Source: a virus
IMG/VR virus record: IMGVR_UViG_3300027899_000075
Span: 1 to 22,300 of that record
Strand: one strand, 5' to 3'
Length of the DNA stretch: 22,300 bases
A program made the translations under genes and the position numbers. The notes under the pieces were generated by a model, which was not told where the DNA came from, ran no database searches, and was given only the letters and a program-made list of their open reading frames with translations. Positions 211-12,423 of this stretch are shown here, piece after piece (position 1 is the stretch's first letter; each line of letters begins with the position of its first letter).

Positions 211-3200
211 CTAATAATAGCAGAATAGAAAGAGGCAAAGCAAATAATGCTGCTAAAGCTGCTGCTAATGCTGCTAAGAAGATTGCTCGTAATTCACAGA
301 ATCCGGATTCTAAGACATTCGTAGGACCACATCAAGAACCAGTAGTAGGACCACCAGCACCAAAACCAGAACCAAATCCAAATGCTGGAACAATAAGAAC
401 TGATGGTTCTGATTGGGGCCCCGATGTAGATGATAGCGGTAAACCATTATCCATCAACAGCGATGGTTCCTTTAATATTTCACAAAAGACTCTAGACCAA
501 GCACAAACAAACAGAGACGCAATCAGTAATGCTAGAACCCAAGATGCCGAGCATAGCAGAAGATTAAATGTTTCACCTAACCAACGAGTCGAGGGATTTG
601 ATTCCACTGGCAAGACATCTAAAGCAAATCCAAATTTCAATTACAAGAATCCAAACTCACCAGAGGGTAGACTACTAGCAGACGACACCATTAATCCAAA
701 TGGGACAATGAAGGACACAGATAAGTTTGGACCTAAGACACTTGATGCTGCTAAACGATTGGCAAAGGAAGATACAGCAAGGGTTGAGGGTGAACTAAGA
801 GCAGCAGATATTAAGCAAAATGGTCCAATGCCAATTGATGTCGCTGGCGTTGAAGGCACTAAACCAAATATTTCAGCGACTACTAATAATGATAATAATG
901 AAACCAACAACGAAACTAATAATCAATCAACTACGAATGCGCCTTCTTCATCTCACACTACCAATATAACCAACGAGGTTACCAATCATCATTATATCAA
1001 TCCAAATTCACCAGAGGGTAGGATTGCTGGTATAGACAAACCACAATTTAGTGTTGGAAGAAGTTCAACTGGAACTCCAATGGTAACTGGAGGTTCTTAT
1101 AAGAATCCCAATAGTCCAGAAGGAAGACTACTAGCAGACGACACCATCAATATAGATGGGACAATGAAGGATACCGATAAGTTTGGACCAAAGACATTTG
1201 ATGCTGCTAAACGATTGGCAAAGGAAGATACAGCAAGGGTTACGAAGGAAGTAACTCCTATTGTTGAAAACCAATTAAAGAAAGAAGCAGCAGATGTTAA
1301 GAAAAATGGTCCAATGCCAATTAATGTCGCTGGTGTTGAAACTCCTACACCAAATATTTCAACGACTACTAATAATGATAATGATGAAACCACCAACGAA
1401 ACCAATAATCAATCAACAACAAATACCCCTTCTTCATCGAATACAACTAATATAACCAACGAGGTTCACAATCATAATTATGTAAATCCGAACTCACCAG
1501 AGGGTAGGATTGCTGAAGTAAACAAACCACAATTTAGTGTTGGAAGAAGTTCAACTGGAACTCCAATGGTAACTGGAGGTTCTTATAAGAATCCCAATAG
1601 TCCAGAAGGAAGACTACTAGCAGACGACACCATTAATCCAAATGGGTCGATGAAGGATACCGATAAGTTTGGACCAAAGACAATTGATGCTGCTAAACGA
1701 TTGGCAAAGGAAGATACAGCAAGGGTTACGAAGGAATTATTAGAAAAAGAAGCAATTAAATCAGACCCTCGCACTGCTGCTTCTGTTGTTCCTACTGCTC
1801 CTACTGCTACTCCTACTACTGCTCCTGCTGCTGTTACTCCTGTTGTTCCTACTCCTACTCCTACTGCTAATATACCAAAAGCAACAGGACCCATGGCAAC
1901 CGCTCCATTATCTCTAGAAACAGATAACCTTGTTCCTACTGCTTCAGTTGCTCCAGTTGTTCCTATTGATATTGGTGGTGTTGAAAGCACTAACTCAAAT
2001 ATTTCAGCAACAACTAATGTTAATGAAACAAATAGCGAAAGCACCACTGAACCAAATAATCAATCAACAACTAATATATTTCCTGGTAGTCCAGCATCCA
2101 TAATTTCTCAGTTAGCATTTTCTTCTGTATTATCAAGTGAAGGTGTTCCAAACAACAATACTACTAATTCCAATATTACACCAACTTCTTCGCCAACTAC
2201 AATCAACACCAATGTTGGTGGCAATACTATAAATGTTGGTGGAAATACAACCAATATCAATAACATCAGTAATAGTGATTCACCTATTAGCGGAAATACA
2301 ACAAATACAAATACAAATACCTCCAATCAAAATTATGCCAACAATGACGAATCGTTATCGATGTATAGCAACACTGCGCAATACAGCGACCCAAGTGAAA
2401 CATATAATCAGTTATCCAATATTGATTACACCAATACCGATAATGAATATACAAACAACAATACCCAAGTAGACTCAACTGCCTTCATCGACTCTTATAC
2501 GCAGGGAGATGCCACTGACTTCAATGTAAATCTAAATTCTAATTCATCAGATACAACCATTGAAGGTATATCAAACGATGTCAATATGAATTCAATATCT
2601 AGACCATATACTGATAATATACTAGATGACGGCAGCAGCAACAGCGAATCGAACACTTCATCCACATCATCATCTCCTGTTTCTTCTGTATCGTCATCAT
2701 CACAACAAAATAATAATACAACGATAAACAATGGAAATCAAAACATCAGTAATACCTCTTCTAATATTACTAATGGTAATGTAACCATAAATCAATCGAC
2801 TACACAACAGAACACTACGAACAATACAGGTGGCACAACTAATTCCACATCAACTAGTGGAACTATGCTTAATGGATTTAATCAGAACAATAGTGTTGAT
2901 AGTATCAGCAATAGTAATCAAACCTATGGAAACATTCGACATAATACAACCATCAATGCCATGCTTGGTGGGCAATCAACCACACACGCTCTATTAAGTT
3001 CATACAATGATAACATAGGAATAGACAATTCTGAATCAAATCAAACGAATATCAGTAACAACAGCACAGACACATTTACCGATAATTCACAATCCAATCA
3101 ATCATCATTCAACAACAATCAATCGGCATCTAGTAATACAAGTAATCCATCGTATACGAACAATAATTTTAATTCAAATCAAACATCTTATACGGGAGAT

Positions 3201-3575
3201 ACCAATAATACAACCAATAGATTTTCTAATTCCGTGGAATTCGACGGGATTAACAATTTATTCAAATCGGATTATTCTACAAAGATATCAAACATATCTC
3301 GTTCATCAACATTAACTGATACTAGCGAAAATATAAAACAAATAATCAGAGAAATAATATCTGAAGAATCAGAAAAGACCAAAGAAAATGAAGAGTCTTT
3401 ATATACAGATATGGATATACCAACACCCTCTGAAGGTGATGATGTTCAATTTATGGACAATCAGTCAGCAGCTACTGATAATATCAATACTAATCTTGTT
3501 AATGACTATAGTTCATTGATGGATATAATGGAAAAAATAAGCAGTCCCCCGATTTGGAGGACTGCTATTGGTTGA
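1..3575 (+). CDS. Giant repetitive Asn/Thr/Ser-rich protein (5' end outside window)
   Basis: The reading frame is open from position 3 to the stop at 3573-3575, so the gene starts before the window; at least 1190 codons are visible. The product is dominated by low-complexity Asn, Thr and Ser. It starts with a tandem SNNTASHSNT repeat, then an Ala/Lys segment, then three near-identical 47-residue modules (NPNSPEGRLLADD ... DAAKRLAKEDTARV), a Pro/Ala/Thr-rich linker (about 1780-1900), and about 500 residues of Asn-rich sequence with GGNT-type repeats. The last 80 residues are more charged and could form a helix (IKQIIREIISEESEK). No enzymatic motif is seen. Repetitive Asn/Thr-rich proteins of this size in tailed phages are usually fibres or other surface structures, but that is inference here. 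Its 3' end converges on the gp32 gene and carries that gene's terminator. Confidence 0.85.
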   Translation, partial: SNNTASHSNTSNNTASHSNTSNNTASHSNTSNNTASHSNTSSHNNTSSHSNTSSHNNTSSHNNTSSHNNTNNSRIERGKANNAAKAAANAAKKIARNSQNPDSKTFVGPHQEPVVGPPAPKPEPNPNAGTIRTDGSDWGPDVDDSGKPLSINSDGSFNISQKTLDQAQTNRDAISNARTQDAEHSRRLNVSPNQRVEGFDSTGKTSKANPNFNYKNPNSPEGRLLADDTINPNGTMKDTDKFGPKTLDAAKRLAKEDTARVEGELRAADIKQNGPMPIDVAGVEGTKPNISATTNNDNNETNNETNNQSTTNAPSSSHTTNITNEVTNHHYINPNSPEGRIAGIDKPQFSVGRSSTGTPMVTGGSYKNPNSPEGRLLADDTINIDGTMKDTDKFGPKTFDAAKRLAKEDTARVTKEVTPIVENQLKKEAADVKKNGPMPINVAGVETPTPNISTTTNNDNDETTNETNNQSTTNTPSSSNTTNITNEVHNHNYVNPNSPEGRIAEVNKPQFSVGRSSTGTPMVTGGSYKNPNSPEGRLLADDTINPNGSMKDTDKFGPKTIDAAKRLAKEDTARVTKELLEKEAIKSDPRTAASVVPTAPTATPTTAPAAVTPVVPTPTPTANIPKATGPMATAPLSLETDNLVPTASVAPVVPIDIGGVESTNSNISATTNVNETNSESTTEPNNQSTTNIFPGSPASIISQLAFSSVLSSEGVPNNNTTNSNITPTSSPTTINTNVGGNTINVGGNTTNINNISNSDSPISGNTTNTNTNTSNQNYANNDESLSMYSNTAQYSDPSETYNQLSNIDYTNTDNEYTNNNTQVDSTAFIDSYTQGDATDFNVNLNSNSSDTTIEGISNDVNMNSISRPYTDNILDDGSSNSESNTSSTSSSPVSSVSSSSQQNNNTTINNGNQNISNTSSNITNGNVTINQSTTQQNTTNNTGGTTNSTSTSGTMLNGFNQNNSVDSISNSNQTYGNIRHNTTINAMLGGQSTTHALLSSYNDNIGIDNSESNQTNISNNSTDTFTDNSQSNQSSFNNNQSASSNTSNPSYTNNNFNSNQTSYTGDTNNTTNRFSNSVEFDGINNLFKSDYSTKISNISRSSTLTDTSENIKQIIREIISEESEKTKENEESLYTDMDIPTPSEGDDVQFMDNQSAATDNINTNLVNDYSSLMDIMEKISSPPIWRTAIG
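645..1727 (+). repeat. Three copies of a 141-bp coding module (645-785, 1101-1241, 1587-1727)
   Basis: The 141-bp module, 47 codons, occurs at 645-785, 1101-1241 and 1587-1727 with only scattered, often synonymous differences. Between copies, a second shared block (about 999-1100 and 1485-1586, containing KPQFSVGRSSTGTPMVTGG) is also duplicated, giving a period of 456 then 486 bp. The high nucleotide identity suggests recent in-frame duplication, or gene conversion between the copies. Confidence 0.95.
3541..3565 (-). terminator. Rho-independent terminator of the gp32 gene, inside the convergent gene
   Basis: GCAGTCC at 3541-3547 pairs with GGACTGC at 3559-3565, with two more inner GC pairs after one mismatch and a 5-nt loop. 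Read on the minus strand, the hairpin is followed by TTATTTTTTCC, a good U-tract. On the plus strand nothing T-rich follows. It therefore terminates minus-strand transcription coming from the gp32 gene, about 27 bases after its stop codon, while coding for SSPPIWRTA in the plus-strand gene. Confidence 0.8.
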
Positions 3576-10154: not shown

Positions 10155-11093
10155 TTATTCCAAAATAGAGGCAAGTGTATTCGGTATCTCGTGAGCGATT
10201 CTCTTCTCTGCCAACTTGATGTAGTCGGGATTTAGTTCAGTTCCCACAAAGTTTCTATTATTCTCAAGAGCAACAACTGCTGTGGTTCCACTACCAGTAA
10301 AGGGATCGAGAACATTTCCACCTTCGGGACAACCAGCAAGAATACAGGGAAGAATAAGATTCTTTGGATAGACCGCGAAATGCGCTCCCTTGTAACCTTT
10401 GGTATTTACCTTCCACACAGAACGCTTGTTCTTTTTTTCAACAATTGCCCTGAATGGAAGTTGTCCTGGTAGAGGCTCACCCTTTGCATTGAAACTGCCT
10501 TTCTTGGCGGATGGTCTACCACAATCAGCATACTTTGCATCTTCCTTGATAGCTTCATGGTCGTAGTAGTAGTGAGACTTCTTGGAAAGAAGAAAGATAT
10601 ACTCATGTGCTTTAGTGCAACGATCCTCGACTGATTCAGGCATAGGATTTGGTTTATGCCAGATGATGTCCTGACGCAACCACCAACCATCCGCTTGCAG
10701 GGCAAATGCAACCCGCCACGGGATGCCTATGAGGTCTTTGTGCTTCAGTCCCTTCTGCTCCCTACGATTACCAGGAATCGTTGTAGGCATATCCCGCTGC
10801 CCCCCGATTGTCTGTGGTGGTGGTGCTACATTCTTCTGAGACATATAGGAATCACCAAGGTTCAACCACAAAGTGCCATCAGGACGAAGACAGCGACGAA
10901 CTTCTCGGAACACATCAACCATTGCCTTGACATACTCATGGACTTCCTGCTCGGATCCGATTTCATCATCTCCTCCGTTGTATGAACGAAGTCCGAAATA
11001 TGGAGGTGAGGTAACGCAAGTATGAATAGATTCATCTGCAACTTGTTTGAGTGCTTCACGGCAGTCTCCTTGAATGATTCTGTGAGTATTCAT
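10155..11093 (-). CDS. DNA methyltransferase, beta class (TSPPY)
   Basis: 312 residues. Motif IV TSPPY is at residues 28-32 and the SAM-binding motif I DPFTGSGTT at 263-271, followed by GTELNPDY (284-291). Catalytic motif before SAM-binding motif is the beta-class order. SPPY is more usual for N4-cytosine enzymes, DPPY for N6-adenine, so N4-methylcytosine is somewhat favoured, but this is not decisive. The target site lies in the region between the motifs and cannot be read. There is no restriction gene next to it, so this is an orphan phage enzyme, probably masking sites from host nucleases or for regulation. Its ATG overlaps the stop of the SAM decarboxylase gene (TAATG). Confidence 0.93.
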   Translation of the reverse strand: MNTHRIIQGDCREALKQVADESIHTCVTSPPYFGLRSYNGGDDEIGSEQEVHEYVKAMVDVFREVRRCLRPDGTLWLNLGDSYMSQKNVAPPPQTIGGQRDMPTTIPGNRREQKGLKHKDLIGIPWRVAFALQADGWWLRQDIIWHKPNPMPESVEDRCTKAHEYIFLLSKKSHYYYDHEAIKEDAKYADCGRPSAKKGSFNAKGEPLPGQLPFRAIVEKKNKRSVWKVNTKGYKGAHFAVYPKNLILPCILAGCPEGGNVLDPFTGSGTTAVVALENNRNFVGTELNPDYIKLAEKRIAHEIPNTLASILE

Positions 11094-11479
11094 TATTGAA
11101 ATTTAACACCCCTTTCAATGTAATGGTCTTCGTAAGAAGTAAATTCAAAATTCTTCTTGGCAAATTCCAAGACGATATTCTGATCGAATTTATTACAAGA
11201 ATATACATCAAGTGTAATAAAACGAGTAGGTTCCAATGTGTGAATCTGAATACCAGATTCGATCAAGGGAACCCATCCACTGATTCCTGCTTTATCAGGA
11301 TAAATCTCAATGCCATTCTTGTCAGTCGGTCCATGCATAACAACTGGTTGACTCATACGAGTCATTCCTATATTATCCACTAACTTTTCTAGAAATCGGT
11401 ATACCAATTCTAAATTATCTGCTGAACCTTTACGGCAGCCATACATATCCAACAAATACGAGTATCCAAATGGTTTCAT
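11093..11479 (-). CDS. speD: S-adenosylmethionine decarboxylase proenzyme
   Basis: 128 residues, the length of the short prokaryotic form. The family makes the aminopropyl donor for spermidine by decarboxylating SAM, using a pyruvoyl group made by self-cleavage. The key residues of the Thermotoga enzyme (Ser63, His68, Cys83) are all present at the same spacing: S75 in LIESG, H80 in QIHT, C95 in LDVYSC. Cleavage would be between Glu74 and Ser75. The His usually next to the pyruvoyl Ser (SH) is Gly here. The N-terminus GYSYLLDMYGC fits the family. SD TAGGA lies 10 bases upstream, after tRNA-Thr. It is directly coupled to the SAM-using methyltransferase. Confidence 0.88.
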   Translation of the reverse strand: MKPFGYSYLLDMYGCRKGSADNLELVYRFLEKLVDNIGMTRMSQPVVMHGPTDKNGIEIYPDKAGISGWVPLIESGIQIHTLEPTRFITLDVYSCNKFDQNIVLEFAKKNFEFTSYEDHYIERGVKFQ

Positions 11480-11642: not shown

Positions 11643-11643
11643 A

Positions 11644-11724
11644 TGGATGATGAAGGACTTGCACCTACGAAGTTTAAAACAGCAGATTTACAATCTGCCC
11701 CCGTTGCTACTTGGGTAATCATCC
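11644..11724 (-). tRNA. tRNA-Tyr (anticodon GUA)
   Basis: 81 nt, class II with a long variable arm as in bacterial tRNA-Tyr. Acceptor GGATGAT/ATCATCC; anticodon stem GCAGA/TCTGC with loop TTGTAAA, anticodon GTA; T-loop TGCAAGT region; discriminator A; no encoded CCA. One base separates it from tRNA-Asn. Confidence 0.92.
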
Positions 11725-11733
11725 AAAAGTTAA

Positions 11734-12151: not shown

Positions 12152-12225
12152 TGACCTTGGGGGAATTTGAATCCCCGTAGCAACCTTGAAAGGGTTGAGT
12201 CCTAACCAGACTAGACGACAAGGCC
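12152..12225 (-). tRNA. tRNA-Glu (anticodon UUC)
   Basis: 74 nt. Acceptor GGCCTTG/CAAGGTC with one G-U pair; D-stem GTC/GAC; anticodon stem CAACC/GGTTG with loop CTTTCAA, anticodon TTC; T-arm GGGGA-TTCAAAT-TCCCC; discriminator A; no encoded CCA. Confidence 0.94.
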
Positions 12226-12237
12226 TTAGATATAGAA

Positions 12238-12310
12238 TGAGGATGGTGGGACTCGAACCCACACTGGATTGATTTTGAGTCAATTAACTCTGCCATTGGT
12301 CTACATCCCC
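12238..12310 (-). tRNA. tRNA with CAA anticodon, class I shape (nominal tRNA-Leu)
   Basis: 73 nt. Acceptor GGGGATG/CATCCTC; short D-stem GAC/GTT; anticodon stem ATTGA/TCAAT with loop CTCAAAA, so the anticodon reads CAA (Leu, codon UUG); T-arm GTGGG-TTCGAGT-CCCAC; discriminator A; no encoded CCA. Leu tRNAs normally have a long variable arm, yet here it is only 5 nt. Folding is clear; the amino acid identity is uncertain. Confidence 0.85.
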
Positions 12311-12316
12311 GCAATA

Positions 12317-12384
12317 CGCCGTTCCAGTAACGCTCTGGCTTGAGATTGTTATAAGCAACCCTGCGAAACTTTCCGCCCACGGCG
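12317..12384 (-). ncRNA. Cloverleaf-like RNA at the head of a tRNA operon
   Basis: A 68-nt segment between the promoter start site (about 12388) and the CAA tRNA folds by eye into a closed four-way junction. Closing stem CGCCGT/ACGGCG; arm 1 GCGG-aaagtt-TCGC; arm 2 GGTTG-cttataa-CAATC with a 7-nt loop that would give anticodon TAT; arm 3 CCAG-agcgtta-CTGG. All stems pair perfectly. Arm sizes mimic D, anticodon and T arms, but arm 3 lacks the TTCRANY T-loop. It is therefore a tRNA-like structure or a degenerate tRNA-Ile rather than an ordinary tRNA. Function unknown. Confidence 0.5.
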
Positions 12385-12394
12385 CGTAGATTGT

Positions 12395-12423
12395 ATTATA
12401 TCAGAATCAGTGCGTAATGTCAA
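12395..12423 (-). promoter_or_regulatory. Consensus sigma70-type promoter for the tRNA operon
   Basis: Minus strand: TTGACA (12418-12423), 17-bp spacer, TATAAT (12395-12400), exact in both boxes. It overlaps the 3' end of the 103-residue gene. It should drive the cloverleaf RNA and the CAA and Glu tRNAs, and possibly read on into the genes and tRNAs down to the methyltransferase. Confidence 0.87.

Follow-up and report, generated by a model that had tools for sequence, protein, structure and literature searches.

A phage tRNA-Ile(UAU) with an alternative elbow, and coupled D-loop and T-loop substitutions in other phage tRNAs

A tRNA-Ile(UAU) gene stands first in a tRNA operon of a 22.3-kb virus record (the window, that is, the whole stretch of DNA analysed here), and its elbow has changed from G18-G19 / U55-C56 to A18-G19 / G55-C56. 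It is very probably an unusual tRNA doing an ordinary job: a new structural variant of tRNA, belonging to a wider set carried by phages. Both a review of T-loop nucleotides (PMC7912444) and a study of synthetic tRNAs (PMC6337575) regard G18-U55 and G19-C56 of ordinary tRNAs as conserved or invariant. A literature search that covered few subscription journals and preprints turned up no description of this elbow for phage tRNAs; the closest precedent is a remark of Burks et al. 2005 on Gs in the T-loops of tmRNA from Caulobacter and Reclinomonas (PMC1168896). The wider set, in which phage tRNAs carry compensated changes at the elbow, is apparently undescribed.

Fold and limits of the element

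An earlier note on this DNA had described a cloverleaf with tRNA-like arms at 12317-12384. The minimum-free-energy fold of this segment on the minus strand is indeed a cloverleaf (-20.7 kcal/mol), and the centroid fold is identical. A plus-strand reading was discarded: the cloverleaf is absent from the plus-strand fold, and the operon runs on the minus strand. Compared with shuffled sequences the folding energy is unremarkable (z -1.06); as this is not significant, we leave energy out as evidence. We obtained no cloverleaf of full tRNA geometry from 20,000 dinucleotide shuffles of the surrounding 100 nt, nor from 100 shuffled versions of the window. Together with strong covariation among homologues, this confirms that the cloverleaf of 12316-12385 is real and not due to chance.

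The acceptor stem, previously read as a 6-bp closing stem, has 7 bp (GCGCCGU/ACGGCGU) with an outermost G·U pair, which sets the limits of the element at 12316-12385 of the minus strand, two bases beyond those first given. The other arms needed smaller corrections. The D arm, taken for 4 bp, consists of 3 bp and a G·U, and its loop is also devoid of the usual GG; the anticodon arm keeps the anticodon UAU, the 7-nt loop and the 5 bp assigned to it and gains an outer G·U; the T arm has the 4 bp and the loop AGCGUUA originally described, to which a mismatched 49-65 pair is added. Base 73 is A (12315), and no CCA is encoded.

The element thus shows the general architecture of a tRNA, with a 7-bp acceptor stem, a D arm, a 5-bp/7-nt anticodon arm and a T arm closed by a 7-nt loop, and has U33, a purine at 37 and G53-C61. 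It departs from it at G18-G19 of the D-loop, at U54-U55-C56-R57-A58 of the T-loop, which in its family is AGCGU or GGCAG with C56 and R57 retained, and at U8, also absent. We carried out the Rfam check that had been proposed: the tRNA model RF00005 gives no match to the element, neither at the gathering score nor at E up to 10, and the ARAGORN listing of the window likewise omits it.

The consensus promoter and the two downstream tRNAs that had been noted around the element are both there. The promoter ends 9 nt upstream of the tRNA-Ile gene, with its TATAAT aligned at the same position in close relatives, and the tRNA-Leu and tRNA-Glu genes follow on the same strand (Table 1).

Table 1. Features of the tRNA-Ile(UAU) gene and of its surroundings in the window.
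Feature	Position	Strand	Remarks
Whole cloverleaf, tRNA-Ile(UAU) gene with alternative elbow	12316..12385	-	Fold, 15-sequence alignment, covariation, covariance-model match of 86.6 bits
Acceptor 5' strand GCGCCGU	12379..12385	-	Pairs with 12316-12322; 7/7 pairs in 15/15 sequences
Acceptor 3' strand ACGGCGU	12316..12322	-	Pairs with 12379-12385; 7/7 pairs in 15/15 sequences
D arm GCGG-AAAGUU-UCGC	12363..12376	-	A18-G19 at 12370-12369 instead of GG
Anticodon arm, loop CUUAUAA	12343..12361	-	Anticodon UAU at 12353-12351
T arm, T-loop AGCGUUA at 12334-12328	12323..12339	-	G55-C56 at 12333-12332
Promoter TTGACA-17-TATAAT, TG before the second hexamer	12395..12423	-	12/12 consensus match
Second operon gene, tRNA-Leu(CAA), with ordinary elbow	12238..12310	-	ARAGORN
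Third operon gene, tRNA-Glu(UUC), with ordinary elbow	12152..12225	-	ARAGORN
tRNA-Tyr(GUA), G55, T-loop UGCAAGU, D-loop without GG (AAGUAGCAAC)	11643..11725	-	Second such tRNA of the window

Homologues and exchange with the ordinary gene

Searching viral contigs by flanking proteins and by sequence patterns, we collected 15 distinct sequences including that of the window, all from metagenomic contigs and many present on several. The anticodon loop CUUAUAA, A18-G19 of the D-loop and G55-C56 of the T-loop are invariant in 15/15 while the stems vary; those members that were retrieved by one of the patterns had been selected in part on the D-loop. In the 15-sequence alignment, 97% of cells are paired on the family structure. 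Compensatory changes occur in all four arms, with 14 of the 22 pairs changed on both sides; none of 500 shuffles scored as high for covariation, and sliding the pairing lowers the score from 0.54 to 0.09 or less. Pairing is complete (100%) across the acceptor, D and anticodon stems. The D stem changes jointly from GCG/CGC to GAG/CUC, and both sides have changed in 5/6 pairs of the anticodon stem and in 4/5 of the T stem, where a 49-65 mismatch is found in ten of the 15 sequences. All members have A73, and 14/15, the window among them, have C4-G69; two bases separate the acceptor and D stems, and the variable region has 4-5 bases.

A covariance model built from the family, R1, gives scores of 83-95 bits to the members themselves, against 43-65 bits for most ordinary tRNA-Ile(UAU) genes of phages; run on whole carrier records, it gives a single match per record. 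The exact sequence of the element has no match in the viral contigs, its BLAST search against isolate phages gave chance pieces only, and a pattern with the anticodon left open retrieved from the viral contigs only records already known with the UAU form. The searches of bacterial genomes were run without a positive control. There, an anticodon-free pattern had three matches in 84,980 bacterial species, none with the UAU loop or a tRNA outline; R1 had none in 398 Pseudomonadota genomes, a weak result for want of that control; AGCGUUA with CCA had one match, which is not tRNA-like. GGCAGYA with CCA had 34, mostly one recurrent sequence, of which the four instances checked in Rfam are all alphaproteobacterial tmRNA.

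The element is a tRNA-Ile(UAU). The isoleucine determinants are A73, the anticodon and C4-G69 (PMC9976931), and the window gene possesses A73, UAU and C4-G69 alike. Contig L002 matches the window at 61/62 positions upstream and is essentially identical to it through tRNA-Leu and tRNA-Glu, but its Ile gene is identical at only 40/75 positions and carries an elbow of the ordinary kind, GG / UUCGA. Among 41 loci with the neighbouring gene for a 103-aa protein, 30 carry an ordinary and 11 an alternative tRNA-Ile(UAU); none carries both and none neither. Mapped on the tree of the 103-aa protein, these two states require five changes, three of them forced by strongly supported branches. On the simplest reading, the ordinary and alternative forms are interchangeable AUA decoders: they occupy the same slot, exclude each other and occur once per record, in carriers rich in AUA (its share of the Ile codons is 32% for the window and 31-46% for other carriers).

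Ordinary phage tRNA-Ile(UAU) genes (e.g. L002:63-137, L024:4332-4406) resemble the element in their slot, CUUAUAA loop, G8-G9, extra base before the anticodon stem, A73 and lack of an encoded CCA. They differ from it by GG in a longer D-loop and by the T-loop UUCGANN, and ARAGORN finds them. The earlier note had proposed a degenerate tRNA-Ile: the isoleucine assignment stands, but degenerate is the wrong word, because the departures are conserved and compensated in 15 sequences and the gene replaces an ordinary tRNA-Ile(UAU) one for one.

Coupled elbow substitutions in phage tRNAs

ARAGORN-based counts of elbow types are biased toward GG; we scanned 2.15 Mb of phage DNA for cloverleaves by geometry, U33 and purine 37 only. 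With U55-C56 in the T-loop, 249 of 251 tRNAs have GG in the D-loop; with G55-C56 only 4/35 do, and the other 31 have AG without GG. The association persists when Ile(UAU) is excluded (GG in 4/17 of the remaining G55-C56 tRNAs; Fisher 5.5e-17). Since D-loops often contain AG in any case, we relied on permutation and on the absence of GG as criteria. The rule tested (U55 with G18, G55 with A18, and a Watson-Crick 19-56 pair) owes its 18-55 part to the Ile family, with other tRNAs serving as the test, while the 19-56 classes other than G-C were recognised in the course of inspection. It holds in 29/31 tRNAs of a tRNA-rich phage (permutation mean 20.6, maximum 28 in 100,000) and in 126/131 CCA-encoding tRNAs overall (mean 97.9, maximum 112 in 20,000). 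For the non-UC tRNAs alone the permutation signal is weaker, the observed count of 29/32 being attained in 36 of 20,000 shuffles. Altogether, the D-loop and T-loop substitutions are shown statistically to be coupled, in a survey of mostly metagenomic contigs. Besides G-C, the 19-56 pairs seen in phages are C19-G56, U19-A56 and A19-U56; position 54-58 is U-A, A-U, G-G or C-A. An antiparallel pairing of a D-loop GY with a T-loop GC was dropped, because the coupled 18-55 change across isotypes fits the ordinary register better.

The alternative elbow extends across many isotypes, and most such tRNAs encode their CCA. In related phages tRNA-Lys(UUU) combines GGCAGUA with AG, and in another phage tRNA-Phe combines AGCGUAA with AG. 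Three contigs have a tRNA-Ile(UAU) with AGCGUUA, AG in the D-loop and an encoded ACCA (L179:3630-3700, L184:468-537 and L186:4680-4750), that of L184 with an otherwise ordinary tRNA body. One phage group (contigs L159, L162, L163, L168 and L191-L196; records G028-G031), for which no close isolate was found, has about 31 tRNAs covering most amino acids; their CCA is encoded, and almost all of them deviate from the standard elbow. The alternative elbow is also found in a cultured phage, Pseudomonas phage 16Q (OR001909), in tRNA-Ile(GAU) and tRNA-Pro(UGG) (L204:2494-2563 and 2974-3043). A Pakpunavirus tRNA-Phe (L156:1494-1565) has the T-loop AUCGUUA with a normal GG D-loop, that is, the 54-58 swap alone, so the 54-58 and 18-55 swaps are separable.

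Two kinds of tmRNA share these features. Alphaproteobacterial tmRNA (RF01849; L209-L222) has the T-loop GGCRGUA and a D-loop UAG or CAG, with A18-G19 as in the GGCAGYA members of the family; in the general permuted-tmRNA model the corresponding sequences are UUCGAUU and UGG. A permuted tmRNA on a phage contig (L033:5367-5676; RF04321, 59.6 bits) has UGCGAAU and AAG, again A18/G55. In alphaproteobacteria, then, an RNA known to act on the ribosome already has the alternative elbow. The element itself is not read as tmRNA: no tmRNA covariance model matches in the window, and tmRNA, unlike the element, has no anticodon arm, carries a tag frame and is charged with alanine.

tRNA-Pyl, together with synthetic tRNAs built on its scaffold, is another relative in shape: like the element, it does without a G18-U55 / G19-C56 elbow with U55, and has a small D-loop and a 6-bp anticodon stem (PMC6337575). 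However, its acceptor and D stems are separated by one base or none, its variable region is 3 bases long and it has U54-A58 (PMC6337575), whereas the element has two bases there, a variable region of 4-5, A54-U58 or G54-G58 in its family, and a retained G19-C56. The spacer and the variable region rule out a tRNA-Pyl.

Proposed function and competing readings

We consider it highly probable that the segment is a functional elongator tRNA-Ile(UAU) with which a T4-like phage reads its frequently used AUA codons. The operon's own consensus promoter would transcribe Ile, Leu and Glu in that order. Host tRNA-processing enzymes would then excise the tRNA and, as its gene encodes no CCA, one would be added; the host isoleucyl-tRNA synthetase would charge it by way of A73, C4-G69 and the anticodon loop. 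The molecule would adopt the usual L fold, with A18-G55 in place of G18-U55, G19-C56 kept and A54-U58 instead of U54-A58. AUA usage is consistent with the decoding we infer. Having neither U54 nor U55, the RNA cannot receive the m5U54 and pseudouridine 55 that are usual in tRNAs.

Why the elbow changed is a separate matter. It is possible, at somewhat under even chances, that the tRNA is functional and the change merely tolerated, by neutral and compensated drift in tRNAs that serve for one infection; this overlaps with the function proposed above. In its favour, several compensated solutions coexist (A-G at 18-55; G-C, C-G, A-U and U-A at 19-56), and most tRNAs of the window phage have kept the ordinary elbow. 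Against it, AGCGUUA and GGCAGYA turn up again and again as T-loops of isotypes and phages that are unrelated, and in one phage group most of the about 31 tRNAs are changed, so the change looks favoured rather than random. Tentatively, and as a rather unlikely possibility, phages may have rebuilt the elbow repeatedly (A18-G55 with any Watson-Crick 19-56 pair), keeping translation while evading such enzymes of the host, or such defence nucleases, as recognise the universal G18-U55 elbow; the extreme phages would be those with nearly all their tRNAs converted. A further candidate cause is a way of folding that does not depend on modification. Phage tRNAs known to evade host nucleases also depart from the host sequence, but they do so in the anticodon loop, the D-loop, D-arm and T-arm going unmentioned (PMC10264068), while the element keeps its anticodon loop invariant and alters the elbow.

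The earlier note had also considered a tRNA mimic, an RNA keeping the tRNA outline to bind a synthetase, a processing enzyme or a defence nuclease, with no role in translation. The missing GG and U54-U55 and the silence of the Rfam tRNA model would suit such a decoy, and so would the invariant anticodon loop. Yet a mimic is not needed as an explanation for a gene that stands, one for one, in the place of an ordinary tRNA-Ile(UAU), although this is also expected of a decoy requiring the same anticodon; with the alternative elbow spread over many isotypes, mostly with encoded CCA, and with carriers rich in AUA, we judge a decoy quite improbable. Least credible of all is a decaying pseudogene recognisable by its shape alone, for which one may cite a close relative, the unannotated tRNA-Ile(GAU) of the cultured phage KIL1 (L203:2490-2559), where G19 is lost and decay may be under way, but which fits poorly with an element present on many contigs, with compensatory changes, invariant loops and full acceptor, D and anticodon stem pairing in 15 sequences. 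The last earlier proposal, a new structured RNA family, is right in that general tRNA models miss a structured variant; the variant is nevertheless still a tRNA, with an elbow common to other phage tRNAs.

Should a functional tRNA be the correct reading, phages would supply many natural, compensated alternatives to the invariant G18-U55 / G19-C56, and evolution would thereby have tested which contacts of the elbow are truly required for translation: at 19-56 a Watson-Crick pair is nearly always retained, whereas two forms are found at 18-55. It would also suggest that phage tRNA repertoires are under-annotated, as standard gene finders often miss alternative-elbow tRNAs. Such tRNAs would be natural scaffolds unable to carry the usual T-loop modifications, and the elbow as well as the anticodon would perhaps be contested between phage tRNAs and their hosts.

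The source phage appears to be T4-like, to judge by its genes for a T4-type gp32 and a late-transcription coactivator; the relatives listed as nearest to its gp32 are cyanophage proteins, at <60% identity. Beside the gp32 gene, at 708-3575 of the plus strand, lies a 955-aa open reading frame very rich in Asn, Thr and Ser, with repeated blocks GPKTxDAAKRLAKEDTARV. Finally, an S-adenosylmethionine decarboxylase (PF02675, E 1.2e-17) is encoded at 11093-11479 of the minus strand, adjoining a DNA methylase gene.
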